64,000 nt of DNA from Periplaneta americana. Lineage: Eukaryota > Arthropoda > Insecta > Blattodea > Blattidae. This document shows, in pieces, positions 2,961 through 61,500 of the stretch. Location: assembly GCF_040183065.1 (NCBI RefSeq), contig NC_091117.1:108740001-108804000 (forward strand), given 5' to 3'. The notes under the pieces were generated by a model that worked only from the letters and a program-made list of their open reading frames with translations, had not been told where the DNA came from and did no database searches. The first letter of the stretch is position 1. Each line of letters begins with the position of its first letter. The position numbers and the translations under genes were made by a program.

Positions 2961-3794
2961 AAGCGACATTTTTTTTTTAATTCGAGCCGCTAAATAGAGA
3001 CTGTATAATAAATGTATTTCACGACATAAAACGAGACAAGAGCCACAAATGTCTGGTGGTGGTGCTGCAGCTCCGCAGCCCCCCTTCTAAAGCCGCCCTG
3101 AGAACTAGCATTGAAGGACCAATTACACAGGACAAGGACACGACACATCATGCCACACATGCGTCTTAGCAATATGGTTTGTAGATAGCTGCTTATATCA
3201 CCACTCCTGCGTGTACTAAAGGCAGATGTATTCAACAGTTGTTCAGAGATTCATTGCCTGAAGTCCTGACATCCCATTTCTTTGCAAGCTGCTAGTCAAT
3301 CAATCGGCTTATCGCTTTGACTGAGCATTAATGTTGGACACGTTCAACTTGTCATTGAGTGTATTTTAGTCAATGGGAATTCAAAATAAGACGCTAGTGA
3401 AATAAATAAGAAGCTTCATTAGAATATTTTGCCAGCAAAATTGACCGGCGAAAAAGGAAACTTGTTCAAAGCAAATGCAAGCAGAACCATATAAATCACA
3501 CTTTAGCTATCCCCTCACCTAACCCATTCAAACTTTCTCACTGTCCTCGGCCTCCTGTCAATTAGCCTATTCGGCTTTCAGATATTGCCAATACGGTTAC
3601 TGTCACTACATTGTGATATATAATGGAGTACGCATATTTTTCATTCAATTAAGTGTCCATTTCAACACACCTTAGAATCTGCATGTCTGGCTATTTTAAA
3701 GTTTTTCGTGCTTACTGCTCCAACCTTTAATATACCCTTTAACTGTCCAATTACTAGGCTATGTCTGTAAACATGGTAACAGCTCGCCACTTAC
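2961..3794. other. No gene seen; downstream flank of coiled-coil gene
   Basis: AT-rich sequence with a poly-T run near 2,970. No open frame with recognisable content. Further 3' exons of the minus-strand coiled-coil gene would lie here or to the left, but I cannot identify any. Confidence 0.5.
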
Positions 3795-3857
3795 CTTTTC
3801 CTGCTGGAGCCGCAACTCGTGCTGTTCTTCATATTTCTGCCTCAGTTCTACTTTCTC
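3795..3857 (-). CDS. Coiled-coil gene, internal exon (21 codons)
   Basis: On the minus strand a canonical acceptor (TTTGTGATTACAG) precedes a 63-bp phase-0 exon ending in a strong donor (AAG|GTAAGT). It encodes EKVELRQKYEEQHELRLQQEK-type sequence, a charged heptad-rich coiled coil. It continues in frame from the larger exon at 4,166-4,439 across a 308-bp intron. Product not recognised. Because both splice sites and phase agree, this is the best candidate in the window for an ordinary host gene. Confidence 0.6.
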
Positions 3858-4165
3858 CTGTAATCACAAAGGAATCAGGTTCAGAAGTAGCCCAGTCAGT
3901 AAGGTGGCAGTACGGTGAGAAACAGAATAACACACAACTATTGAATGTACTGTCATCTACTAAACAATACGACTTTCTAATATTATCTTCACATTTTGTA
4001 CTTGGTTGGGTATACAGATTGGTCTTAACTCTTCTTCATTTTCCCACTCACCCATTTCGTGAATGTCTGGTATGAGCAAATACTTCTGTGGAATAAAGCC
4101 TTAACTGTGACCCAAAGTAAGGTGTTCAGCAGTAACTGTAAATATGACAACAGCAGATCTCTTAC

Positions 4166-6357: not shown

Positions 6358-8110
6358 TCACTCACTATCACCACTTCCGGTATCAGCACACTTCTCACAA
6401 AAAGGCACCGAATGTTCTTTACAAGTTATCTTGTTGCACCTATGGCATGAAGTATTAGTTTTACGATCCTTCTTCCTAGGACATACCTCACATCGACTTC
6501 AGGACATCTTCATTCGTTTCCGTGTTGGTTGGGTTAGTTCCTCCACACCATTCATTCTTCGAATAGTGGATCTGATTTCCAAAGGCAAATTCTTCAATGT
6601 CAAGCGATGAGCCAAATAATTTTTCACCAATCCAAGAGCCAGTTCCTTCAGAAATGATCGGCGGATGATTGGTCCTCGTGAAGTAGCATTGTGAGTTTTA
6701 TAAATAACTAAAGCATTAATTGCTGTGATGTTGAGAAGACCAAAAAACACGGTAAGTGGCCAACGTCGGGATTTCCTGGAGACGTTGTATGTAATGCATA
6801 GTTCATCCACTACATCAATGCCTCCTTTAGTAGCATTGTAAAAGGTTATTATTTCCGGTTTCTTTTCCTCTCTGGTGTCTGGATCAATTGCATCATCATA
6901 ATGCATAGTGGAAGCTACTAGAACAACTTTTCCTGGTTTTGGAACATAGGAAGTGAGAGTCAGTCTATCCTGGAATCCAAAAATACTGGAAAATTGTTCA
7001 CGCCTTTTCTGCACAAATTCAGGAGGAATTTCACGTTTATTTAGTCTTACAGTTCCAACATATGTTAAGTTGTGATCACTGAGAAGTTCTTTGGCAAGTG
7101 GCACACTCATAAACCAGTTATCAAACGTAACATTTCTTCCAGTTCCACTAATAGGAGTAATCAGCCGTTTGACCACATCAGATGGAGAATTTGATTGACG
7201 GTATTGGCCTTCTGGTTGCATACCACAGTATATTTTCAAGTTCAACACATAGAAAGTGCGGGAATCAGTTAGTCCAAATATTTTTATGCTATATTTGGCT
7301 GGTTTGCTTTTGATATACTGTCTGAATAAGCAGTGTCCTCGGAAGGGCTCGAATTTTTCATCGATAGTGCAATATTCAGCAACTGTATAACTTTTCTGGA
7401 AGTTTTTTTTATGATAGAGTCAAAAATACTTCTTATTGGAGCGAGTCTATCAGTCGCTTTTCTAATTTCTCTTGTAATAATGTCGTCGAAACGAAGGCAC
7501 CGCAAAAGAAAGAAGACTCTGTTTATTCCCATTGTTGCTAGAAACAAAGGAATTTATATTCCATCAGTTGTCCACAAATCTTTAGCGTTGAGTTTAGCTG
7601 ACCTCAGTGCACCAGAAAAATATAACAGACCAAAAAGTGTTTTTATCTCAGTCTGATCAGTTATCGAAGCATCACGTTCGCGAACGAAGTTGTTCTGGAT
7701 AGATCTGATGTAAATATTTGTGTACTTGACAATATCATCTATGATGTTATCATCTATTAGACACGACCAGGTTTCTAGTGGTGACTTTGCTTGGCGAGCT
7801 TGTTCCTTACAGACCGGAAGGTGAGTAACTATATTGCACGCTCTGGTCTTAACATTTCGAGGTGGTACACTCTTCCTCCAAGAAGCCCGTCTTTACCTTT
7901 GTAAGTAGCAAACTGAGATAGTGGAGCGTTGTCGTCACAGTCATCACTACTCTCTGCTTCCTATTCCTGTTCGTGCTCTGTATCGGTATTATGTTCACTT
8001 TCCGAAATATGATCATCTTCATCTTCCGATTCACCTTGAATAATTTCTTGTTCGTCTTCTTCATCCAGCCAGCCTACTATTTGACGACTTTGTCTAGACT
8101 CTAAGTCCAT
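6358..8110 (-). pseudogene. piggyBac transposase pseudogene
   Basis: Reading minus from an ATG at 8,110: an acidic N-terminus (DEEDEQEIIQGESEDEDD) with an in-frame stop, then the conserved domain with PLETWSCLIDDNIIDDIVKY and TDQTEIKTLFGLLYFSG, then LATMGINRVFFLLRCLRFDD, DRLAPIRSIFD, the first catalytic Asp region CTIDEKFEPFRG, FDNWFMSVPLAKEL with the second Asp, and GGIDVVDELC near the third. The C-terminus is a cysteine-rich zinc finger (RCEVCPRKKD ... CHRCNKITCKEHSVPFCEKC) ending at 6,358, but a TGA at about 6,499 splits it from the catalytic domain. At least one frameshift separates the blocks near 7,370-7,550 and another lies near 7,850. Length and order match a full transposase of about 580 residues; this copy cannot make it. 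Confidence 0.85.
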
Positions 8111-31319: not shown

Positions 31320-32614
31320 CGAGGCGCATCCAGAAAGTAAGTTTCCCGATTTTTTCCCCTTGAAAGTAAACGTAATTAGCCGTGTCAATTGCGCATGCGT
31401 AAAAGATCTATGACGTATTAATCATATGCCAGCCGGACAGATCCCGCCTGGTGCCAGTAGCGTGGCAGCAGTGGTCCGAAATGGAAGCCTGCGAGGTTCG
31501 GTCTGTGATAAAGTTCTTTAATGCACAAAGCATTGCGCCAATTGAAATTCATCGGCAGCTCTGTCAGGTCTATGGGCCGAACATCATGAGTAAGCAGATG
31601 GTACGTCGCTGGTGTAGGCAGTTTTCCGAAGGTCGTCAAAGTGTCCATGATGAAGAGCGCAGTGGGCGACCGTCCCTCATCAATGATGATCGTGTTGAGC
31701 TGGTGCGGCAGTGCATCATGGAGAACAGTCGCTTCACGATTACGGAGCTGAGCAGCCATTTTCCGCAGATAACGCGATCCTTGTTGCATGAGATTGTCAC
31801 TAAACACCTGCTGTTCAAAAAAGTGTGTGCCAGGTGGGTGCCGAAAAACCTGACACCCGAACACAAAATGCAACGTTTAGGAACAGCACTGACATTTCTG
31901 CAACTGTATCACGATGATGGCGACGAGTTCCTCGACAGGATGAGACTTGGATTTCGCACTTCACCCCGGAAACCAAGCAGCAGTCAATGCATTGGCGGCA
32001 TAGTGGATCTCCGGTCAGGACGAAATTCAAACAGACGCTGTCAGTACGGAAAGTGATGTGCACGGTGTTCTGGGACAGGTAGGGCATTCTGCTCATTGAC
32101 ATCCTTCCAAGAGGTGAAACAGTGAACGCTGACCGTTACTGTGAAACACTGCGAAAATTGAGACGTGCCATTCAAAACAAGAGGCGTGGAATGCTTACTG
32201 CAGGTGTTGTGCTCCTCCATGACAATGCTCGTCCACATACGGCTCGGCGCACAGCAGCTGTTTTGACAGAATTTGGCTGGGAGTTGTTTGATCACCCACC
32301 CTACAGTCCTGATCTTGCTCCCAGCGATTTTCACGTTTTCTTGCACCTCAAGAAATTCCTGTCCTCCGATGAGCGTTTTGGCAACGACGAAGATCTAAAG
32401 ACGTCTGTCACACGCTGGTTCCATTCACAGGCGGCAGAGTTCTACGACAGAGGGATACAAAAGTTGATCCCACGATACCACAAGTGTCTGAATTCTGATG
32501 GTGGCTATGTTGAAAAATAGCTGAAACATTGCTGTACCTGTTGCCAATAAATGTTTTCCTGAAATTGTGTGTTCTTTAAAAAAATAGGGAAACTTACTTT
32601 CTGGATGCGCCTCG
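31320..32614 (+). mobile_element. mariner element (DD34D), TA target duplication
   Basis: The ends CGAGGCGCATCCAGAAAGTA (31,320) and TACTTTCTGGATGCGCCTCG (ending 32,614) are perfect inverted repeats. They continue to AGTTTCCC and are flanked by TA on both sides (31,318-31,319; 32,615-32,616). At 1,295 bp it has the standard mariner length. The transposase is disrupted. Confidence 0.97.
31481..32520 (+). pseudogene. mariner transposase pseudogene
   Basis: The N-terminal helix-turn-helix region is intact (EVRSVIKFFNAQSIAPIEIH, MVRRWCRQFSEGR, HDEERSGRPSLINDD, WVPKNLTPEHKMQRL). At about 31,940 a deletion of roughly 13 bases removes the IVTGD block with the first catalytic Asp and shifts the frame (FLDR then MRLGFRTS instead of DETWISHFTPE). 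After the shift the protein resumes (VMCTVFWDR, a TAG stop near 32,080, GILLIDILPRGETVNADRYC), with VLLHDNARPHTARR (second Asp), YSPDLAPSDFHVF (third Asp, 34 residues apart) and the normal C-terminus at 32,520. Close to full length (about 345 residues) but inactive. Confidence 0.95.
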
Positions 32615-37729: not shown

Positions 37730-38615
37730 TATCAATAAAAATAATAATAAAAGTCTGTTAATATGTAACTAGATGTTACAAATTCTGTATATGTGTGTAT
37801 GAATTAATATCTGATAACCTAACCTATATAATTTAAAATGATGCACGTGGCTAGCAAAATTTACAAGTATATCAAATTAGTTATAAGTGATAACATTGCT
37901 ACATATTGTAAATGATAACTCACCTCGTCACTATCCCAGGTATTTTGAAGAAACATTTCGAGTGGTGACTACTCTTCTTACTTCCGCAGTACGGATATTC
38001 GCATTTAATTCGTCCAGCCATCCTTCCCTCGCCTAGGCAAGAAAATTCAATATGTCTTCTTCTTCAGTTCTTGAAATACGGCAAGAAATTGTTCCAGGAC
38101 TAACAACTTAAACCAAGAGCACGCAAGTTCATTCTCCATTTCCAGGAGTCTAAAATCAGTGACGGAATGTTGGTAAGAGGCGATGTTAGCGCTCATCGTG
38201 GCAGTGCCATAGAATTAACAGCGATTAACCAGGACCTCCTATATTACCGGACCTGACACTGGCATCCAAGATGGCGGCCGGAAGAGGGATTTCGTAGATT
38301 GCAATGAGTTAAAATAAATACGGCATTGATAAGATTATTTTAACAAAATTCTCAATGAAACAATTAATAATAAAGTTCCTTACCTACATAAATGAACATA
38401 GGTATAAACTCCAGAATATGGATTGCACCCTTTCCCTCTTACTTCAAAATTCCAACTTCGTGCACACAAAATAAATTATTGGCACTGAAAAGTGCCTTTT
38501 CGTAAATACAATGATGTGCATTAGACAAACCCAGACAAATCTGCTCTTTTTAGTATTTTAAGACATAATTTGGTAGTTGCAATCCATGTTCTAAAATTTT
38601 CCCCTTCAATACGTT

Positions 38616-38902
38616 TGTAAAACGCGCCAGGGCGAGTGCCTGCTGTTTCCAACAGGTGGCAGCACGCACAAGGCGCGAAGGAGTCGGGCATCGGATGGAC
38701 GGCAGGTGGCAGCAGGAAGGGGGCACGCGGAGAAGTGGCGGGCATCGTCTCGTCCACTTGGTTGAGAGGTGTGCTCGCAGGAAGGTGTGATTGGGAGACA
38801 AGAGCAAGGGGAAGCACGACTATACTCGTGGAGATTAGAAACAGCCAAGTATTGCGTGTGATAGAAAATAAACTACAGGCGTGTTTTAAAGGTGTACTAA
38901 CA
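38616..38902 (+). repeat. 5' LTR
   Basis: Begins TGTAAAACGCGCCAGGGCG and ends GGTGTACTAACA. About 98% identical to the 3' copy, so the insertion is recent compared with the other elements here. Confidence 0.93.
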
Positions 38903-39023
38903 ATTCAGAAGTGGGATATATCTGCGTGTCAGTCAAAGAAAAGCTACTAGGTGAGTTAGCTAAAGGCGATACTAACACGTGGTAATCTCGTTCTTTGGTG
39001 AAATCTCTAAGGTGCTGTAAGAG

Positions 39024-40000
39024 ATGGCGAGTAATCTAAACCAGGTTGAGGATAGCGTGCTGGATTACGAAATGGAGGTCGGGGACCGAGAATCGAGCCC
39101 CGATTCCGTGGCGTTTTCGTCATCTGGCACGTGCAGGGACCACGTGGACCGGAGCGTCGCGTCTCTGGAAGACGACGCACCGGCAGCGGATCCGGTCCAA
39201 TTGGCGGTGGCCCACATCCTCAACCAAGGGGATGTTGCCAGGGCGATTCAGAGCATGATGCAAGAGCAGGCGGCCCGTATCCTCAAGGAGGTAGAGGAAC
39301 GGGCGCAGGCTACCTTGCGTCATGTGACTGTTCGCCAACCTGAGGCTGGAGGCGCCAGCAAAGGGGCAGCAAAGAAGAGGAGTCCCGGAAGGCCAAACAG
39401 TAGCGCACGTGGGCGGTGCTGTAGAGAGAGCACCTCGTGTGGAAGTGCGGCCAGCAGCTCTAGGGGGTCATCGCGCCCTACGGCGAGAGCAGGGGGAGAA
39501 CTTGTCGATGCTTTCGATCCAGACGATTGTGAGTGTAACGTCGATCGTTGGCTCAACAATATCGACCAGCTGGGCCGCATCCATGACTGGAGCGATTATG
39601 AGAGGGCGTTCTTCATGCAGGCGAAACTCCGAGGTGGGGCGAAGGCCTGGTATAATCGCCTGGATGATTACGACATCTCGTGGCCCGAGTGGAAGAAGGC
39701 ATTGAGGCGCGCCTTTCCACGGCAGCATGACTTCGGCGAGTCATTGGAGGAACTGGTAGCGAGGCGCAAGCTACCAGATGAGACCATGACGAAATATTAC
39801 CACGCCAAGCTTGCTCTGTGCGAGAGGTGCGCATCAAGGGCGAGGATGCCATCTCCTGCATCATCAGGGGACTTCCGCTAGAGCTCCAGGGGAACGCGCG
39901 TGCTTACAAGTGTAAGACTCCAGACGAACTCTACTCTGGCTTCCTGAGTACGATGGACAGCTACCGGGAGAGTGGACGATCCCAAGGAGAGGCGAAGAGG
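39024..40000 (+). pseudogene. gag of the LTR element, frameshifted
   Basis: From ATG 39,024: an acidic N-terminus, an Arg/Ser-rich linker (about residues 115-160), then the capsid-like retrotransposon gag domain with FDPDDCECNVDRWLNNIDQL, ERAFFMQAKLRGGAKAWYNR, LDDYDISWPEWKKALRRAFP and LPDETMTKYYHAKLALCER. A frameshift near 39,830 moves it to another frame (IKGEDAISCIIRGLPLELQG, DELYSGFLSTMDSYRE), which ends at the deletion junction near 40,000. No zinc knuckle remains. Confidence 0.88.
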
Positions 40001-40002
40001 CG

Positions 40003-40638
40003 GTGCACGGAGACTGGGGTGTGCGGCATGTGCTGAATGCTATTGCCACACCCAGGGCGAATGGTCAGGTGGAAAGACAGAATCGCACTATACTCAATGC
40101 GATTGGGGCGAGCACAGAGTGTGAATCACGGTGGGATGAGAAGCTAAGTGAGATTGTGTGGGGCATGAACCGCTGTGTCAACAGCAGTACTGTTTTTCTC
40201 CTGCACAGCTCATGTTTTCTCACCAAGGCGGACCTGTCTGGTGGAGTACAGGAAGTCAATATGGCAGAAGAGGGCGAAACATTTGAGGACATTCAGCAGG
40301 CGGTCCTCAGGCGTAGGGACAAGGCGGCAGAGAACCTGACCAAGGTGGAAAGGGCGATGAAAGCGCGCTATGACCGAGGGCGGAAGGTCGCAAATCAGTA
40401 TCAGGTAGGTGATCTGGTGCTATGGCGAGAGGCGAACACGTGTTCTGGCGAAAAGGGAGTCAAACTCAAGTTGTTGAACAAGTATGGTGGTCCGTACAGG
40501 GTTTCCAAGGTGCTAGGAAATGACAGGTATCAGGTGAGTGCTGTCAAAGACATGCGGGGATACCGCAACTTTTCAGGCGGTATCACAGCTCAGTTCCTGG
40601 AGGTGAACCAGGAGACAATGGTGACGAGGAGACTTTGA
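40003..40638 (+). pseudogene. Integrase C-terminal remnant of the LTR element
   Basis: It starts within the integrase core at WGVRHVLNAIATPRANGQVE (the ATPRANGQVER block before the catalytic Glu), then WDEKLSEIVWGMNRCVNSST, the helical KVERAMKARYDRGRK part and the chromatin-side YQVGDLVLWRE...LLNKYGGPYRVSKVLGNDRY domain. The open frame lasts 211 codons because the deletion joined gag and integrase near 40,000. There is no start context; it could only be expressed as a read-through. Confidence 0.88.
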
Positions 40639-40713
40639 CTGACAGACAGGACTTGATTGACCTGCTGGAGAGTTGAGAATTAATGGGGACATTAATTTTG
40701 CAGGATGGCCGAA

Positions 40714-40999
40714 TGTAAAACGCGCCAGGGCGAGTGCCTGCTGTTTCCAACAGGTGGCAGCACGCACAAGGCGCGAAGGAGTCGGGCATCGGATGGACGG
40801 CAGGTGGCAGCAGGAGGGGGTACGCGGAGAAGTGGCGGGCATCGTCTCGTCCACTTGGTTGAGAGGTGTGCTCGCAGGAAGGTGTGATTAGGAGACAAGA
40901 GCAAGGGGAAGCAGGACTATACTCGTGGAGATTAGAGACAGCCAAGTATTGCGTGTGATAGAAAATAAACTACAGGCGTGTTTTAAAGGTGTACTAACA
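40714..40999 (+). repeat. 3' LTR
   Basis: Same start and end as the 5' LTR. Differences include one single-base indel in the AGGAAGGGGG stretch and about four substitutions. A polypurine tract before it is weak (CAGGATGGCCGAA). Confidence 0.93.
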
Positions 41000-41225
41000 C
41001 GTTATTGTATTATTCAGATTTGTGAGGAAATAGAAGACAGTAATACAATACTGAATAGCTGCTACTTCAGGATTTAGGAAATCTTACCTGGATTATACAA
41101 ATAGATTTCATCAGCAACTGGAAATTATATAATATGGAGTCCTGTCTTCCTAGTCACTAAACTTTGTCACTGTATTCACTGAGAGTGGTTAAAATAAAAC
41201 TAGATATTCACTACCTACAGTTTAA

Positions 41226-41900
41226 CACTGTGCCCACTGATGTTTATTTAGAATGCAATGGCACTATTCACTATATCCACTGATGTTGATTCAGAATGAA
41301 ATGACACTATTCACTGTAGTTTCTCACTATATCCACTGATGTTGATTCAGAATGAAATGACATTATTCACTGTAGTTTCTCACTGTATCCACTGATGCTG
41401 ATTCGGAATGAAATGGCACTATTCACTGTAGTTTCTCACTATATCCACTGATGTCGATTCAGAATGAAATGACACTATTCACTGTAGTTTCTCACTGTAT
41501 CCACTGATGTTGATTCAGAATGAAATGACACTAATCACTGTAGTTTCTCACTATATCCACTGATGTCGATTCAGAATGAAATGACACTATTCACTGTAAT
41601 TTCTCACTATATATCCACTGATGTTGATTCAGAATGAAATGACACTATTCACTGTAGTTTCTCACTGTATCCACTGATGCTGATTCAGAATGAAATGACA
41701 CTATTCACTATAGCTTATCACTGTAATATCCACTTATACATAGGCCTACACAAGGGATTAGACAGGCTGAAAACTAAAAACGATGAAGAATTCACAGCTT
41801 GGAGAGCACAGCACTGTAATTTATTTCTCACTGTATCCACTAATGTTGATTCAGAATGAAATGACACTATTCACTATAGCTTATCACTGTAATATCCACT
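41226..41900. repeat. 56-bp minisatellite, copy A (~10 units)
   Basis: Units contain TCACTGTAGTTTCTCACTAT and ATCCACTGATGTTGATTCAG and end in GAATGAAATGACACTAT. About 10 units occur, the last separated by a local duplication of about 155 bp (41,705-41,815 repeated at 41,866-41,980). ATCCACTTAT motifs lie at both boundaries of that duplication. Confidence 0.9.
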
Positions 41901-41979
41901 TATACATACACAAGGGATCAGATAGGCTGTACCTGTACAACTAAAAACGATGAAGAATTCACGGCTTGGAGAGCACAGC

Positions 41980-42290
41980 AGCCTATTTTTTGAACTTGGA
42001 ACACTTTCGTTGGGTTTTATTTTTGTTTTTCAATGCCTGCTTTTCATTTTGGACCTTGCAGTAATTATTAATAAATAAGTTGGCCAAAACCTTGCTGCAC
42101 TTCACTGCTAGTTTTCTTACCACTGAGTTGTTGGGTTGGGGTAAAATATTCACGATGAATGCTTCTTGTCCACTTATCCCTTAAATCTATATCTTTTGGA
42201 AACAAAAATACATGTACAAACGGACTTTCTTTATTGTAATTCGATTTGCAACCTGGGACACTACACGTGTGAGGCGTTTTAAGATTAACA
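41980..42290 (-). pseudogene. Copy A: THAP start fused by deletion to transposase C-terminus
   Basis: On the minus strand the THAP segment starts at 42,276, where the ATG of copy B is ACG, so the start codon is lost. It keeps CSVPGCKSN and FVHVFLFPKD, then breaks after NNSV (about 42,106) and joins sequence encoding RKLAVKCSKVLAN and the lysine-rich end KCSKFKK. Relative to copy B, about 49,973 to 52,573 is missing. The C-x2-H half of the zinc site is lost, and a 1-bp insertion shifts the frame just before the junction. No product expected. Confidence 0.85.
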
Positions 42291-42542
42291 ATATAACACT
42301 TTCAAGCTTTGATCTCTACGAAAACAATGTACATTAATTATAATGTCACAATTCTATTATTATATACTAACTTATAAACCCTTCAACGATTATACTACAG
42401 GCAAACGATACAAGAAACACAATAAACATTCACATCAAGTACGTATACTTTCACAGTTGCGTTAACCACTCTATTGTCCACCATGTTTGTTTACTTCCGC
42501 TTACAGTGTCAGGTCCGGTAATTTAGGAGGTCCTGGATTAAC

Positions 42543-49540: not shown

Positions 49541-49807
49541 GAGGCAATAGCAGGACCTCCTATATTACCGGACCTGACACTGTGAGCGGAAGTAAACAAA
49601 CATGGTGGACAATAGGGTGGTAACGCAAGTGTGAAAGTATACGTACTTCATGTGAAAGTTTATTGTATTTCTTGTATCATTTGCCTCTAGTATAATCGTT
49701 GAAGGGTTTATAAGTTAGTATATAATAATATAATTGTGACATTATAATTAATATAAATTGTTTTCGTAGAGAAAGCTTGAAAGTGTTGTTATGTTGTTAA
49801 GGTTAAA

Positions 49808-52710
49808 ATGCCTCGCACGTGTAGTGTACCAGGTTGCAAATCGAATTACGATAAAGAAAGTCCGTTTGTACATGTATTTTTGTTTCCAAAAGATAAAGAT
49901 TTAAGGGATAAGTGGACAAGAAGCATTCATCGTGAACATTTTATCCCAACAAACAACTCAGTGGTTTGCATAAAACATTTTGATTCTGATTTTTATATCA
50001 GAGAAGATAAATTTCCATGTGCGGATGGTTCGTTTATAACTGTGCCTAGAAAAAAGTTGAAACTTCAAGAGGGAGCATATCCTACAATTTTTGAAAATCT
50101 ACCTTCTTATTTAACTAAGCAATTGCCACAGAAAAGAAAAGACCCCAGTCAACGTTTAGCTACTGTCGTAGCACGTGACAAACAGCAGTTCGAAGAATGG
50201 AATGAAAGGGACAACATAATTGAATATCAAGAATTTAAGAGTCAGGTGAGCAACAGAAATATTTCCCCCTTCATTTTTATAGATAAAGAAGATTATGTAC
50301 TATTATGCAAAATTGAGGACAACTGCTTTACAGAAGTACCAAAAGTAGCTGTTTCCATTAAGATTTCATCATCTCTGAAAGTCCAGGTTTTTCATAATAA
50401 CATGAGCCTTCCCAACACTAAGTTTCATTGGTGTCTAGGCCATGAAGGAATGTGTGATAAATGGAGCAAATTTGATTGCCTGTTGAGCCATTTAAAATCT
50501 TTTAAATTTGAAGATATGGGCACTAAGGAAAAGTTGTCTGTTTTATCAAGTTGCTTTCAAAATATTGACGTAGACACTTTTGAACAAAAAGGTCAGAATA
50601 AACTGAAATTTTTGCAAGAACAGTTAGAGCTAGCATTAACTACACAGCCGAGGTATTCGTCGCAGACTTTGGTGTGGGCATCTACATTTTTTTATTCTTT
50701 TCCTGGTGCATACCATTTTGTGCAATCAAGTAAGATGTTAACACTGCCACATCCTTCCTATTTAAGAAGACTTTTGTGTAAAATGGGGACAAATAACTCT
50801 GGGATAAATTCTTTCCAAGTTTCATACTTACGAGAAAAATGTAAATTGCTTGAGGAACATGAGAAGATAGTTACCATAATGTTAGACGAAATTTATGTAA
50901 CACCTAAACTGAGCTACAAGGGTGGTAAAATAGAAGGACTTGCAGTAAATGAAGGCAAGGAACTTGACATTGCCTCTACAATTCAAGTTTTTATGATATC
51001 TTCACCTTTGTCCAGTAATGCAGATGTCATTGCCCTCTTTCCGGTAAAGAATTTAACTAGTGTGTCGTTGTATAACATGACTTGTGAAGTTTAGAATGTA
51101 CTGGAAAATTGTGGTTACATATCTCTGTGCCTTAGGCATATATCAGACAACAATCGCGTGAACAAAGGTATGTTTCAGCATATGTGTGGAGGCTCTTTGA
51201 AAACTAGTGTAAAGAATCCAGCAAATAATGAAAGGGGTCTCTTTTTACTATTCGATTCTGTGCATTTGTTAAAATGTATTAGAAATAATTGGTTGAATAC
51301 CCAAAGCCAGGTATTCCATATTCCAGAGATAGACCATAATCTGTCAGTAGTTCCAGCAGGTTGGATAACCGAACCCAGTAGTGAGTGTCCTACATCATCC
51401 TTCTCTTGTACCTATTTTACAAAAAAAGCTAGCTTCAATGATCTGATAAAGCTTTATTAATCGGAGCAAAGTTCTTTAATCAAAGAAGCCCCTGCACAAC
51501 AAGAAAAGCTCTCTATCCATTATCGTTTGAAAAGCAGAATGTGTCCTTGGCATTAAAAGTATTCAATGAGAAGAACATTGTTGCCCTAGAACAAAAGAAG
51601 GCAGAAATTTGCTGCTCCGATGGAACAATAAATTTTATAAAGCTCATTCTTCGGTGGTGGAAAGTTGTCAATGTTAAGAACCCATTTAAAGGGAAGCACT
51701 TAAGGGATTCCGATTGTGATCCTATTCAGGGACCTGAGGATCCAAAAGTTAGATTTTTAGAGCAGTTTTTACTGTTTTTAAAGTTTTGGCAATCTTCAGC
51801 AATGAATGGGAAGCTCTCAAATGACACTCATACTGCACTGGCACACACAGTCGAGAGTTTAATTTACATGTGTAAATACATATTCCATGAAATGAAATGG
51901 AAGTATGTACTGCTGGGAAAATTTCAGACAGACAAGTTGGAGGGCAGATTTGGACAGTACCGTCAGATGAGTGGTGGTAATTATCATGTTTCAGCAGAGC
52001 AGGTTCTAGAATCAGAAAGAAAATTGAAACTTTATAGTGTTCTAAGGATGAAATCAGCATCATTAGGAGAACTGTCAATAACATCCTTTGTATCAGCTTG
52101 TTCAGATATGAATACCCGTGCTGTCCAAAATGTACCAGACAGTGTCTTGAATAAGTTTGATGGTGCATTAGAACATCTACATACAGTTGAAATTGACAGA
52201 AGTACACAGGAAATTCTAATATGCATTGGTGGCTATGTTGCTCATAGTGTAATTAACTCGTTAGGATCGAATACAGAAAAGTGTGTATCATGCGTGTCAA
52301 CTTTGTCTACAGCCAGGGACTTGATAATTGAAAACAATACAAAATATTCTTATTTTGATGCCTTAAACTGTGGTGGTCTGAAATGCCCTTCTGATTTTGT
52401 TGTTAGTTTATGTACACTTGTGTATAAACTATTTAACATTTTACTAAGCGAAACATTTGAAAATGACTTCTTACAGTTGAACTGTCAGAGGAAGCTTATC
52501 ATCAATTTAGCAATGGATTTCTTTGAATTGAATACCACAGATTTTGATGTAATGTGTAAATGTGAAATGACTTTAAGAAAACTAGCAGTGAAGTGCAGCA
52601 AGGTATTGGCCAACATATTTATTAATGATTACTGCAAGGTTCAAAATGAAAAGCAGGCATTGAAAGACAAAAATAAAACCCACCGAAAGTGTTCCAAATT
52701 CAAAAAATAG
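49808..52710 (+). pseudogene. THAP/P-element transposase, two stops and one frameshift
   Basis: THAP zinc finger at residues 1-80: C5 and C10 (CSVPGC), C54 and H57 (CIKHF), with FLFPKDKDLRDKWTRSI between. Then a basic linker, a central region with TLVWASTFFYSFPGAYHFVQ, the RNase H-like core with IMLDEIYVTPKLSYKGGKIE (first Asp near residue 359), FDSVHLLKCIRNNWLN (second conserved Asp) and, in the C-terminal part, GKFQTDKLEGRFGQYRQMSG and VSAEQVLESERKLK. The end is lysine-rich (KTHRKCSKFKK). Lesions: TAG at 51,092-51,094, TAA at 51,458-51,460 and a frameshift near 51,500 before TRKALYPLSFEKQNV. Without them it would be about 960 residues, similar to THAP9-type transposases. The start at 49,808 is supported by the same start in copy C. 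The role would be cut-and-paste transposition by binding the element ends through the THAP finger. Confidence 0.93.
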
Positions 52711-52799
52711 GCTGCTGTGCTCTCCAAGCTGTGAATTCTTCATCGTTTTTAGTTGAACAGCCTATCTAATCCCTTGTGTATGTATAAGTGGATATTACA

Positions 52800-53075
52800 G
52801 TGATAAGCTATAGTGAAGGGTGTCATTTCATTCTGAATCAACATTAGTGGATGCAGTGAGAAATTACAGTGAATAGTGTCATTTCATTCTGAATCAACAT
52901 CAATGGATACAGTGAGAAATGACAGTGAATAGTGCCATTTCATTCTGAATCAGCATCAGTGGATACAGTGAGAAATTACAGTGAATAGTGTAATTTCATT
53001 CTGAATCAGCATCAGTGGATACAGTGAGAAACTACAGGGAATAGTGCCATTTCATTCTAAATCAACATCAGTGGG
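52800..53075. repeat. 56-bp minisatellite, copy B (~5 units)
   Basis: Read on the minus strand the unit is the same as in copies A and C (TCTCACTGTATCCACTGATG, GATTCAGAATGAAATG, CACTATTCACTG). It lies between the transposase stop and the 3' terminal repeat. An ATCCACTTAT motif stands at the gene-proximal edge (about 52,785-52,796, minus strand). Confidence 0.92.
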
Positions 53076-53877
53076 CACAGTGTTAAACTGTACGTAGTGA
53101 ATAGCTAGTTTTATTTTCAACTAATCTCAGTGAATACAGTGACAAAGTTTAGTGACTAGGAAGACAGGACTCCATATTATATAATTTCCAGTTGCTGATG
53201 AAATCTATTTGTATAATCCAGGTAAGATTTCCTAAATCCTGAAGTAGTAGCTATTCAGTATTGTATTAATTACTGCCTTCTATTTCCTCACATATCTGAA
53301 TTTTACAAGAGTTAATTGGGCAATTGCCAATATTCATATATAAAAACATATAGGCCTAGGCCTAATAAAATAACATATTGAAGCTTTTAATCAGTTGTTT
53401 TATTTATTATGTAGGCATATTTTTATGTTACTGAATGTACTATATGTTCATTTATGTAAGTAGGGAACTTTATTATTTAATGATTCATTGAGAATTTTGT
53501 TAAAATAATCTCATCGATGCCGTATTTATTTTAACTCATTGCAGTCTACGAAATCCCTCTTCCGGCCGCCATCTTGGATGCCAGTGTCAGGTCCGGTAAT
53601 ATAGGAGGTCCTGGCAATAGCGCTCAGATTCCAACCACAACCGGCAGAGTGCAGTTATGTATCAGGAGTAATTCAGCCAATGAGAATGTACACAGTAACT
53701 TTTTTCCTTAGATTATGTTTAATAATTGTACGAAATACAGGATCACACAAAAATAAACAAATGTGCATATTTTCATAAATTATAACAATTACAGAATGGG
53801 GAATGCGTCCCAATTATGTACGTCTTTTTATTTCTAAAAAATGTTCAATACATGGGCCCAATTCATTTCCCTTCCAC

Positions 53878-54300
53878 AGAGGACAGAGAGTGGACTCAGA
53901 AGACATTGAGTGGACAGCTGAGAGGACAGAGAGTGGACTCAGAAGAGATAGAGTGGAGTGTGAGGACAGAGAATAGACTGAGAGGACATAGAGCGGACTC
54001 AGAGGACTTAGATTGAATTGAGAGGACAGAGAGTGGACTGAGAGGACATAGATTGGGCCGAGAGGACAGAGAGTGGACCGAGAGGACATAGAGTGGACTG
54101 AGGACAGAGACTGGCCTGAGAGGACATAGAGTGGACTGGGAGGACATAGAATGAGCACATAGAGTGGACTGAGAGGACACAGAGTGAACTGAGAGGACAG
54201 AGATTGGATTCAGAGGACAGAGTGAACTGAGAAGACATAGAGTTGACGGAGAGGACATAGAGTGGATTGAGAGGACAGAGAGTGGACTAGGAAGACATAT
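53878..54300. repeat. 20-bp minisatellite (AGAGTGGACTGAGAGGACAT)
   Basis: About 20 imperfect units. Because 20 is not a multiple of three and the unit lacks stops on the minus strand, all three minus frames stay open and translate as serine/leucine/proline-rich text; none is a gene. Between 53,621 and 53,877 I see no gene. Confidence 0.93.
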
Positions 54301-55043: not shown

Positions 55044-55643
55044 TTAGTTCCATGCGCCTTGTCTTGTAGGTTGCAAACTTTTTATCATCTTATTAAAATC
55101 CGATATGTCGTTTAACATAGTCTTTACAATTGAAAACATTGCTAATACCGTCAGTCCCTCTTCTCTTATCGTATTTCTGAGATAGGATTTTACTCTTTTC
55201 AAACACGAAAAGCAACGTTCTGGTTCGGAAGTTGTCATTGGTATGGTGATAGCTATGCGTAGTAGTTCCATAACTTCTGAAAATGAGGCCTGCAAGTTCT
55301 CAGATAGAAGAAACTGCAAGAGCTTGACTGCGTCACTGATACTTCTGAATTCTTGTCTCTGATACAACACAGTGAGTTCCGTTTTTAGTTTGTCTTTATC
55401 GAACATTGGAAAAAGCTTCACACATACATTTAGGTTATTTTCAGGAAATGAGGTTTTGTAGCATTCAAATTTTTGTTGACACAGAAGAGAAGATAATATC
55501 AGATGATCTATGAACTCAAATCGGGTGTTAGCTTGTGTGAAAATGAAGTCACACACTTCCTTGGCTGCCGCAACCCTTGTCTGAATCCCTTCGACCTTAA
55601 GACACTTTTTAGGGTTTTCATTTTCACAGATCTCGCTGCTCAA
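55044..55643 (-). pseudogene. hAT transposase C-terminus with dimerisation domain
   Basis: 199 open codons from the first ATG. The region LQASFSEVMELLRIAITIPM, TTSEPERCFSCLKRVKSYLR, NTIREEGLTVLAMFSIVKTM is the hATC dimerisation domain (S/E-R-x-F-S-x-L-K-R-x-K-x-x-L-R). Upstream it continues through VNAIQTIRNSAQLSSEICEN to the point where the SINE interrupts the frame at 55,697; skipping the SINE and one target copy keeps the frame. Farther upstream, stops occur, so the protein is dead. Confidence 0.85.
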
Positions 55644-55696
55644 CTGTGCACTGTTCCGTATTGTCTGTATGGCATTAACAAAGCTTGATATGCAGA

Positions 55697-55901
55697 GTCG
55701 GCCTCGGTAGCATAGTCGGTTGTGAGTTCGATCCCGGCCCAGGTCGATGACATTTAAGTGTGTTTAAATGAGACAGACTCATGTCAGTAGATTTACTGGT
55801 ATTTAAAATAATCCTGTGGGACAAAATTCCGGCACACCGGCGACGCTGATATAACCCCTGCAGTTGCGAGTGTCGTGAAATAAACCATAATTTAATTTTT
55901 T
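55697..55901 (+). mobile_element. tRNA-derived SINE inserted in hAT, 9-bp TSD
   Basis: Flanked by ATATGCAGA (55,688-55,696 and 55,902-55,910). The head has GCCTCGGTAGCATAGTCGG (A box) and GAGTTCGATCCCGG (B box), here closer together than a tRNA requires, so part of the head is deleted. The body includes ATTCCGGCACACCGGCGACG and ends GTGTCGTGAAATAAA, the GCGTCGTTAAATAA-type tail. Confidence 0.9.
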
Positions 55902-58127: not shown

Positions 58128-58602
58128 TTATTTATGTGCTACTTCTGTAATTTCACTAGAAAACAAACTGATACAATGACATGCTATATGAAAACAGTAA
58201 TATATGTCTGGTGTTGGTGGGACTGGAATGTGTTCTTTGGCAAAGGAGGAGGGACACAGGCCTGTGGACTTTCTTTGATATGTTTTTGAGGGTTGTAGGA
58301 ATTTGAGGTCTTTTTGAGGAGACAATTGGGTAAGTTCATTTTCTGGTAAAAGTCGTATAGTTGATAGAATGGATGAAGGATAAGAAAGTTGTGCGGATGA
58401 AGGGTAATTCGATTGTGAGTCTGAATGTGCGCTTGTGATTGATCCATCCAAAGATGGAACTGCCGACCAGTTGAGACCTTTTCTCTCTTTTGTTTTAAAA
58501 TCGGTCTCTGAAAAGTGACGACTGCATACTACTCTGTTGAACAGTGTCGTAGCAGTATGTTCGGTATAGGTTACACCTATACTTTCTGCCCAATGTACAG
58601 CC
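58128..58602 (-). CDS. THAP-domain gene, exon 2 (second half of THAP finger)
   Basis: After a TTTTACAG acceptor (58,603), the minus strand encodes AVHWAESIGVTYTEHTATTL, FNRVVCSRHFSETDFKTKER and GLNWSAVPSL: the W, C-x2-H, F and AVPSL hallmarks of the second half of a THAP finger. A Ser/Pro/Gln-rich tail of about 110 residues follows (YPSSAQLSYPSSILS, STGLCPSSFAKEHIPVPPTP) to a stop near 58,128. It pairs with exon 1 at 59,703-59,811. The residues line up well, but the reading phase of the most obvious donor and acceptor differs by one base, so an unseen alternative site or a pseudogene is possible. No transposase core is nearby, so a host THAP protein is favoured. Confidence 0.5.
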
Positions 58603-59702
58603 CTGTAAAATGTAGAAGTATTAATTAGAATTACCAGTAAATAGAATAGGCCTACTCTAGTATCATACAACCTTGGGTCTATTGTATATTCTGAGGCATT
58701 TAAGAACTACGAATTTTATGATACTGTTCGAAACTCTAAGCTCGTATATCATACAGATCGAGTCTCTTTCTAGTTCTATGATTATGTAACTAGCAAAATA
58801 TGCAATTAGGTAGTTACTTTGTAGAATTTCTAGGCATTTTTGACAATGCCGGCTTTGTTTCCAACAACAATTTGTGAAACGGGATTAGTCCAAGTTTGTA
58901 CATGCAAATGCAAAAAGACTGTTGCGCATTCTCAGATACTTTCATTTCAAGTAGGGTTGTCTAGTGACAGTACTAAATAAGAACCTTTTCTTTTGATCCA
59001 TTTTTATATTTAATAGGTATTTTTCCTGAAAAGCTACACCAAAAGAGACACAGTTTCCTCTTGTTTCACTGGATTCTGTGTGATTTATATAGTCATAAAC
59101 ATGTGATTTTAGTTTCCACGCACAAATAATTTCAAAATAAAAATCCTATGACATCTCTTTATACTTATGTATTGTTGTAGCTCCTCCCGTATTTGTTACA
59201 ATGTTACTAATTTATTACCAACATAACATGTGAAAGGCCAGACTTAATTAGGTTACTAGGGAAATTGTCTATTTCTCTAGTATTGCGTTCTTAAACTCTC
59301 TAGTGTTATACTTGTAAGAAGTGGAGAGACGGGCTATAACAATGCATTAGAATATACCGTAGAGGTAAGCATTAAACGATTTTTATGCTGAAAGTATTTG
59401 TGGCTGCAAAATAAAACCACGTGTTTTACATTATACTATATAAATCTCACAGAAACCTGTGAAGCAATAGAAGATTGCACTTTATTTGGTGTAGCTGATC
59501 TGGGCAACTACTACTGATATTTTTATTATTACAAAACATGTTTGGCTACTGCAATATTGCACAGCTAATCACGTGCTTAAATGTTAGGTTAGGTTTTAGC
59601 ATATAAAAATGGACTCGCCTAAAAAAACATTGCTGTATTACTCTCTGTAGGTACAAATACAAGAGTAATTTAAAGGAATATAGATTAAGTAATCAATATT
59701 AC

Positions 59703-60709: not shown

Positions 60710-61500
60710 TATTCACTAAACTTTGCCCACTGATGTTGATTTAGAATGAAATGGTACTATTCACTGTAATTTCTCACTGTATCCACTGATGCTGATTTAG
60801 AATGAAATGGTACTATTCACTGTAGTTTCTCACTTTATCCACTGATGCTGATTCAGAATGAAATGACACTATTCACTGTAATTTCTCACTATATTCACTG
60901 ATGCTGATTCAGAATGAAATGACACTATTCACTGTAATTTCTCACTATATCCACTGATGCTGATTCAGAATGAAATGACACTATTCACTGTAATTTCTCA
61001 CTATATCCACTGATGCTGATTCAGAATGAAATTGCACTATTCACTGTAATTTCTCACTTTATCCACTGATGCTGATTCAGAATGAAATGACACTATTCAC
61101 TGTAATTTCTCACTATATTCACTGATGCTGATTCAGAATGAAATGACGCTATTCACTGTAGTTTCTCACTATATTCACTGATGTTGATTCAGAATGAAAT
61201 GACACTATTCACTGTAATTTCTCACTGTATCCACTGATGCTGATTCAGAATGAAATGACACTATTCACTGTAATTTCTCACTATATTCACTGATGCTGAT
61301 TCAGAATGAAATGGCACTATTCACAGTAATTTCTCATTGTATCCACTGATGTTGATTCAGAATGAAATGACACTATTCACTGTAATTTCTCATTGTATCC
61401 ACTGATGCTGATTCAGAATGAAATGACACTATTCACTGTAATTTCTCACGTATCCACTAATGTTGATTCAGAATGAAATGACACTATTCACTGTAGCTTA
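60710..61500. repeat. 56-bp minisatellite, copy C (~14 units)
   Basis: About 14 head-to-tail units of the same 56-bp sequence as in copies A and B, with unit variants (GATGCTG/GATGTTG, AATTT/AGTTT, ATATTC/ATATCC). ATCCACTTAT follows at about 61,511. Each unit has four CACT words in one orientation. Confidence 0.95.

Follow-up and report, generated by a model that had tools for sequence, protein, structure and literature searches.

A full-length, inactivated P-superfamily transposon of the American cockroach with 7-bp target duplications and amplified deletion derivatives

In a 64,000-nt stretch of the American cockroach genome (Periplaneta americana, contig NC_091117.1, positions 108,740,001 to 108,804,000; hereafter the window) a 4,063-bp element at window positions 49551-53613 surrounds a broken gene for a THAP-domain transposase. 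This locus raises the question whether a genuine P element resides in a cockroach and, if so, whether its family has moved recently and to which P-type transposons it is most similar. A first-pass annotation, made from the sequence letters only, had proposed a near-complete P-superfamily transposon in a presumed blattodean genome, and the host is indeed a blattodean. We conclude with very little doubt that the element is a dead full-length cut-and-paste transposon of the P superfamily; a deletion derivative of its family was probably moved in trans at a later time.

The proposed boundaries, 49551..53613, turned out to be exact. The element is full length but inactivated and is delimited by perfect terminal inverted repeats (TIRs) of 32 nt that lie 3,999 nt apart. 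The target site duplication (TSD), for which a length of 7-8 bp had been given, comprises exactly 7 bp. The first 23 bases of the TIR occur five times within the window when up to three mismatches are allowed, as compared to a mean of 0.00 in 100 shuffled sequences. TIRs of the form CA...TG are the general rule in the P superfamily, and the element conforms to it, the TIRs of two sister families (see below) being 24 and 31 bp long. CA...TG ends are also described for zebrafish Pdre2 (PMC10983969); statements on published systems, here and below, refer to the portions of the cited papers that were covered. The features of the element are:

49544-49550, no strand: left TSD, GCAATAG, identical to the 7 bp at 53614-53620; extension to 8 bp gives six mismatches
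49551-49582, plus strand: left TIR, 32 bp, starting with CA, 100% complementary to 53582-53613
49808-52710, plus strand: transposase pseudogene, single exon, about 2.9 kb, ATG at 49808, stop codon at 52708-52710, with two in-frame stops and one frame change
49820-50092, plus strand: THAP zinc-finger DNA-binding domain with C2CH pattern match; Pfam PF05485, E 1.9e-15, above the cut-off
50522-50770, plus strand: P-type helix-turn-helix (HTH) region; Pfam PF12017, E 2.1e-4, 22.1 bits (cut-off 23)
50795-51085, plus strand: N-terminal part of the RNase H-like catalytic domain (RNase H_N); Pfam PF21787, E 6.1e-7, above the cut-off
50885-50887, plus strand: first catalytic Asp, opposite D230 of Drosophila P transposase in the profile alignment
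51092-51094, plus strand: lesion 1, in-frame stop; no stop in 8/8 spanning loci (6 copies)
51146-51148, plus strand: second catalytic Asp, in an SDNN motif, opposite D303 of 6p5a in the profile alignment
51458-51460, plus strand: lesion 2, in-frame stop; absent from 5/5 spanning loci (4 copies)
within about 100 bp after lesion 2, plus strand: lesion 3, frame change; absent from 5/5 spanning loci (4 copies)
51940-51942, plus strand: third catalytic acid, Glu, in a DKLEGRFG motif, opposite E531 of 6p5a in the profile alignment
52796-53082, plus strand: tandem array of 56-bp units, 5.1 units (TRF), between the gene and the 3' end
53582-53613, minus strand: right TIR, 32 bp, with TG at its end, 100% complementary to the left TIR
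53614-53620, no strand: right TSD, GCAATAG, the same 7 bp as at 49544-49550

The gene matches its earlier description as an intronless reading frame of about 2.9 kb with three lesions. These split it into open stretches of 437, 121 and 422 amino acids, each of which retains one acid of the putative D, D, E triad, so that the window copy still has all three. The Pfam matches, in the order THAP, HTH and RNase H_N, all fall within the first stretch. Homology runs unbroken through the whole gene and the intact gene of a sister family is one uninterrupted 961-codon frame, both of which point to a single exon.

The assignment to the P superfamily, which the first-pass annotation had made as well, is carried by the THAP and P-type RNase H_N matches and by a profile search. 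Alignment A2, which comprises ten rows and represents four cockroach families, was searched as a profile against the PDB. Drosophila P transposase (6p5a/6pe2) ranked first with an E value of 5.9e-16, and the other three matches were THAP-domain proteins. In the 6p5a alignment D230, D303 and E531, the catalytic acids of the Drosophila enzyme (PMC7776569), are placed opposite the conserved D, D and E of the cockroach profile. The alignment also passes through the GTP-binding region, but no Pfam match was found there and confidence in the structure model is low. Foldseek, run on an AlphaFold prediction for the intact sister protein, placed 6pe2 (E 2.3e-14) and 6p5a (E 3.8e-14) on top at 16% identity, ahead of the ISCth4, Hermes and Mos1 transposases. 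These two Drosophila complexes are the only P-type transposase entries among the PDB matches. Searches with tblastn in viral_contigs (both long open stretches) and in genome_contigs (last stretch) returned no relatives outside the host genome, and the exact 23-base end had zero matches in viral_contigs.

Several observations weigh against this assignment. Pfam offers no family for the last 422 residues at E < 0.1 and none for the middle 121, and the HTH match stays slightly below its cut-off (22.1 vs 23 bits). The A2 profile was built mostly from the sister families, and the sister protein of locus L044 alone reaches E 2.3e-4 against 6p5a, with no single stretch passing by itself. The AlphaFold model of that protein has a mean predicted local distance difference test score (pLDDT) of only 55.8. 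Finally, the duplication measures 7 bp instead of the 8 bp found with Drosophila P (PMC7776569), Anopheles P (PMC1562414) and zebrafish Pdre2 (PMC10983969). On the basis of its predicted domains and catalytic acids the element is a member of the P superfamily, lacking two features of canonical P elements, the 8-bp duplication and introns.

The element had been suggested to belong to a multi-copy family, and this holds for both the window and the genome. The window contains two further copies:

38230-42535, minus strand: copy B, derivative D1, with both ends, a 7-bp duplication (GATTAAC) and a nested long terminal repeat (LTR) retroelement at 38616-40999
60191 to about 62527, minus strand: copy C, derivative D2 (about position 510 of the element joined to 2589), with an intact 3' end and lacking the first ~133 bp of the 5' end

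In the P. americana assembly (3,231,669,367 bases in 91 contigs) at least 40 places, including the window copy, match the first 150 bp of the 5' end with identities of 94-100%. All 40 candidates scored, out of 200, were matches, so the copy number is a lower bound. We fetched 20 loci from the 39 places outside the window, taking them from the top of the list with one skipped, and this sample therefore over-represents the copies closest at the 5' end. The ends recur around the same core: 19 of the 20 loci are D1 copies, in which element positions 1-415 are joined to 3024-4063 at an identical junction, and the remaining locus, L024, matches element positions 1-1903. D1 thus retains both ends, next to which ~380 bp are kept on the 5' side and ~1 kb on the 3' side. 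Adjacent matches to both gene ends suggest that D2 is present at many further places.

The 56-bp array has a core count of 5 to 26 units across 21 copies, with 13.8 units in copy C; none was found in the sister-family locus L044. Unit number differs between insertions (L027; window 60727-61495; L009-L026), and a larger spacing of ~162 bp is also seen in the arrays of most D1 copies. When the 5' subterminal sequence was compared with the 3' region in inverted orientation, six shared 11-bp motifs (up to one mismatch) were counted, as compared to a mean of 6.25 in 20 shuffles, i.e. none beyond chance.

To describe the divergence of D1 we used 15 core copies, which were chosen after viewing the identity table; L014, L026 and L027 (4.0-7.5% away) were left out and L028 was not aligned. 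The mean pairwise divergence of these copies is 1.18%; of their variable sites 68 are singletons and 7 are shared, and the full-length window copy differs from them by 3.65% on average. The near-star divergence of the 15 D1 copies is the pattern of one burst. Because of this divergence, and because most of the gene is deleted, D1 was probably mobilised in trans, and the ends with ~380 bp of 5' and ~1 kb of 3' sequence were evidently enough for this.

The longer copies of the family present a different picture. The three lesions are private to the window copy among those compared, and copies without them, which the first-pass annotation had recommended looking for, therefore exist. Another place in the same family with the first 437 residues free of stops was not found among the 96 of 3,538 candidates scored, nor one with the last 422 residues free of stops among the 99 of 1,139 candidates scored. 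The closest of these, on contig C10, is open over residues 86-437 and lacks element positions ~351-489. In 44 comparisons of coding stretches the ratio of nonsynonymous to synonymous differences per site (pN/pS) ranges from 0.39 to 1.09, except for values of 1.38, 1.59 and 1.83 and for two zeros, which stem from overlapping stretches of one copy; synonymous differences amount to 1.4-11.2%. The near-full-length copies examined are relics in decay, in which past constraint has left weak traces at best. The recent activity that the first-pass annotation had suspected is hence supported for D1 but not for the near-full-length copies, which are broken and have pN/pS values mostly around 0.4-1.1. 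D1 appears to have moved later than the full-length copies, with a transposase source that was not found among the candidates scored.

Intact relatives had also been thought possible, and an intact gene was found only outside the family itself. A sister family with CAAGGC ends, ~32% identical in protein, contains at locus L044 an open frame of 961 codons starting from ATG and encoding THAP and RNase H_N domains; no intact copy of the window element's own family was present among the scored candidates. The four cockroach families compared are mutually 31-37% identical in protein. In the family with CAAGGC ends all eight copies (8/8) have an exact 7-bp duplication, as do its six independent insertions (6/6). 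L044, L049 and L050 are duplicates of one insertion with flanks 99.7-100% identical over 349 bp; they lie on three contigs (C23, C9 and C12, respectively), a recent segmental duplication, and only the C23 copy is fully open among them. The third family, with CACGGC ends, is represented by a single copy (L048), whose 7-bp duplication has one mismatch. For the fourth (L043, L046, L047) no end pair with a duplication was identified, and every comparison showed the homology extending up to the border of one locus or more. L043 contains a 950-aa frame, and diverged (~70-75%) repeats are located near both sides.

Duplication length was also scored across the window element's family. We counted 18 of the 20 fetched loci, leaving out L024 and L028, whose fetched sequence includes a single end, together with window copies A (the full-length element) and B. 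Among these 20 two-ended copies the duplication is exactly 7 bp in 17, 7 bp with a mismatch in one (L026) and 8 bp in one (L021), while one (L022) has none. The 8-bp duplications that had been expected of further copies are thus not the rule, 7 bp is, and neither this family nor the one with CAAGGC ends follows canonical P in this respect. All three families with resolved ends have 7-bp duplications, the third on the evidence of one copy with one mismatch. Target preference was analysed for 18 seven-base sites on both strands (n = 36). T is enriched at position 2 of the duplication (22/36, p 3.1e-4, or 0.017 when corrected for 56 position-base tests). Without correction, enrichment is also seen for G/C at position 1 (25/36, p 4.5e-5) and for G at the second flanking base (18/36, p 1.2e-5). 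Mirrored target positions show complementarity at just 3 to 9 of the 18 sites, and only five of the 18 duplications start with GT.

Comparison with known systems places these features in context. Drosophila P (6p5a/6pe2) has the same THAP and RNase H-like domains with aligned D, D and E and TIRs of ~31 bp (PMC7776569), whereas the cockroach element has a 7-bp rather than an 8-bp duplication, no introns and the 56-bp array, the sequence relation being clear only at profile level. Zebrafish Pdre2/THAP9 shares the P-type transposase with a THAP domain and has internally deleted relatives, but differs in its 13-bp TIRs, 12-bp subterminal repeats and 8-bp duplications (PMC10983969). Anopheles gambiae likewise harbours several divergent P families per genome, with TIRs of 27-31 bp and amplified short derivatives; its duplications, however, are 8 bp long, and its miniature inverted-repeat elements (P-MITEs) have centres that show no relation to P (PMC1562414), D1 being by contrast a plain deletion of internal sequence. 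Galileo, compared here by its published features, has the same 7-bp duplications with rare 8-bp ones, no introns, many non-autonomous copies and internal tandem repeats; the cockroach element differs from it in having 32-bp instead of very long TIRs, a one-sided array and a weaker target motif.

In terms of occurrence, a P element in a cockroach is to be expected, since a survey finds the P superfamily among the DNA transposons of every arthropod species it examined (PMC6327564). This weakens the surprise that the first-pass annotation had implied by associating P elements with Diptera. In literature outside subscription journals, supplements and Repbase, searches on cockroach P elements turned up this survey and a trehalose review as the only papers containing the term 'P element', which appears nowhere in the main text of the Blattella germanica genome paper (PMC6482461). 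We regard the element as a new member of a known superfamily, of modest novelty, its notable feature being the 7-bp duplication.

By homology to Drosophila P, an intact transposase of this family would bind near the element ends via its THAP domain, pair them and excise the element with its RNase H-fold D/D/E active site, with the chemistry presumably as in the Drosophila enzyme; a requirement for GTP, if any, may be shared as well. Strand transfer would take place at positions 7 bp apart and yield the 7-bp duplications, which themselves demonstrate the spacing. D1 would be mobilised in trans by a separate source of transposase.

Could the locus be a domesticated host gene similar to THAP9? 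The P-type domain order within one gene is what THAP9 has, too (PMC7776569), but perfect TIRs, a target duplication, three gene-breaking lesions and many copies leave this idea a negligible chance. For the window copy it is ruled out by the lesions and the copy number. THAP domains also occur outside the P superfamily, so that an element of another THAP-bearing superfamily, e.g. of the Kolobok or Harbinger type, might be considered. This is highly improbable given the P-type RNase H_N match, the 7-bp duplication and a profile match to P transposase that extends as far as the catalytic Glu. We also asked if the amplified derivatives are repressors like KP, encoding a truncated THAP protein. D2 places do match THAP residues ~1-100 beside C-terminal residues 232-422, yet 20 of the 22 places matching residues ~1-100 (79-84% identity) contain one TGA and one TAG, another has two TGA and one TAG, and the last has a TGA. 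With these internal stops they hardly encode an intact THAP domain, and as D1 is cut inside the THAP domain at element position 415, a role of this kind is very unlikely.

A closer contender is membership in, or close kinship with, the Galileo/1360 branch rather than the canonical P branch. The 7-bp duplications (17/20 exact, one more with a mismatch) are as in Galileo, which also lacks introns, unlike P (PMC10990002), and the internal tandem repeats recall those in the Galileo TIRs, where the Galileo THAP domain binds sites within the repeats of its long ends (PMC3688188). The enrichment of G/C followed by T at the duplication ends of the 18 target sites points in the same direction, Galileo duplications being 7 bp, rarely 8 bp, long with the consensus GTANTAC (PMC4168063, PMC2775673). 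On the other hand, the TIRs measure 32 bp whereas Galileo has long ones, the array is found on one side only, and the palindromic Galileo motif is not reproduced in either its GT start or its mirrored complementarity. On balance we consider a place in this branch rather doubtful. The 7-bp duplication makes the cockroach element resemble Galileo in the way it behaves, a shared descent not yet following from it, and the reading as a dead P-superfamily transposon with a later mobilised derivative stands.

Other repeats were observed in the window. The retroelement nested in copy B has LTRs at 38616-38902 and 40714-40999 (287 bp) that are 98.3% identical and flanked by CGTT; its matches to gag and to a Tf2-like SH3 domain are weak and below the Pfam cut-offs. 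A partial THAP domain on the minus strand at 58131-58706 (Pfam E 4e-6) is possibly a remnant of another THAP gene or element. Further transposase remains are located at 6502-7419 (DDE_Tnp_1_7, E 5e-50, which we take to be piggyBac-like), 31403-32053 (Mos1-type, HTH_48) and 55047-55763 (hAT-type, Dimer_Tnp_hAT). A tandem array of 20-bp units (21.5 units, 53878-54299) starts 265 bp past the right end of the element. Scans of the window for tRNA genes and Rfam families gave no matches.

Taken together, well-resolved families of the P superfamily are now available from an insect outside the Diptera, among them a sister element that appears to be intact. The amplified derivatives illustrate clearly how a DNA transposon can carry a minisatellite, here of 5 to 26 units of 56 bp. 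We tentatively put forward, as a possibility short of our favoured expectation, that the cockroach families form an old and diverse P lineage with a common 7-bp strand-transfer spacing. This spacing might then be a deep, heritable property of a major branch of insect P-type transposases, of which Galileo would be the dipteran relic, the 8-bp P elements representing another branch. A comparison of 7-bp and 8-bp P-type transposases could reveal what sets the strand-transfer spacing.

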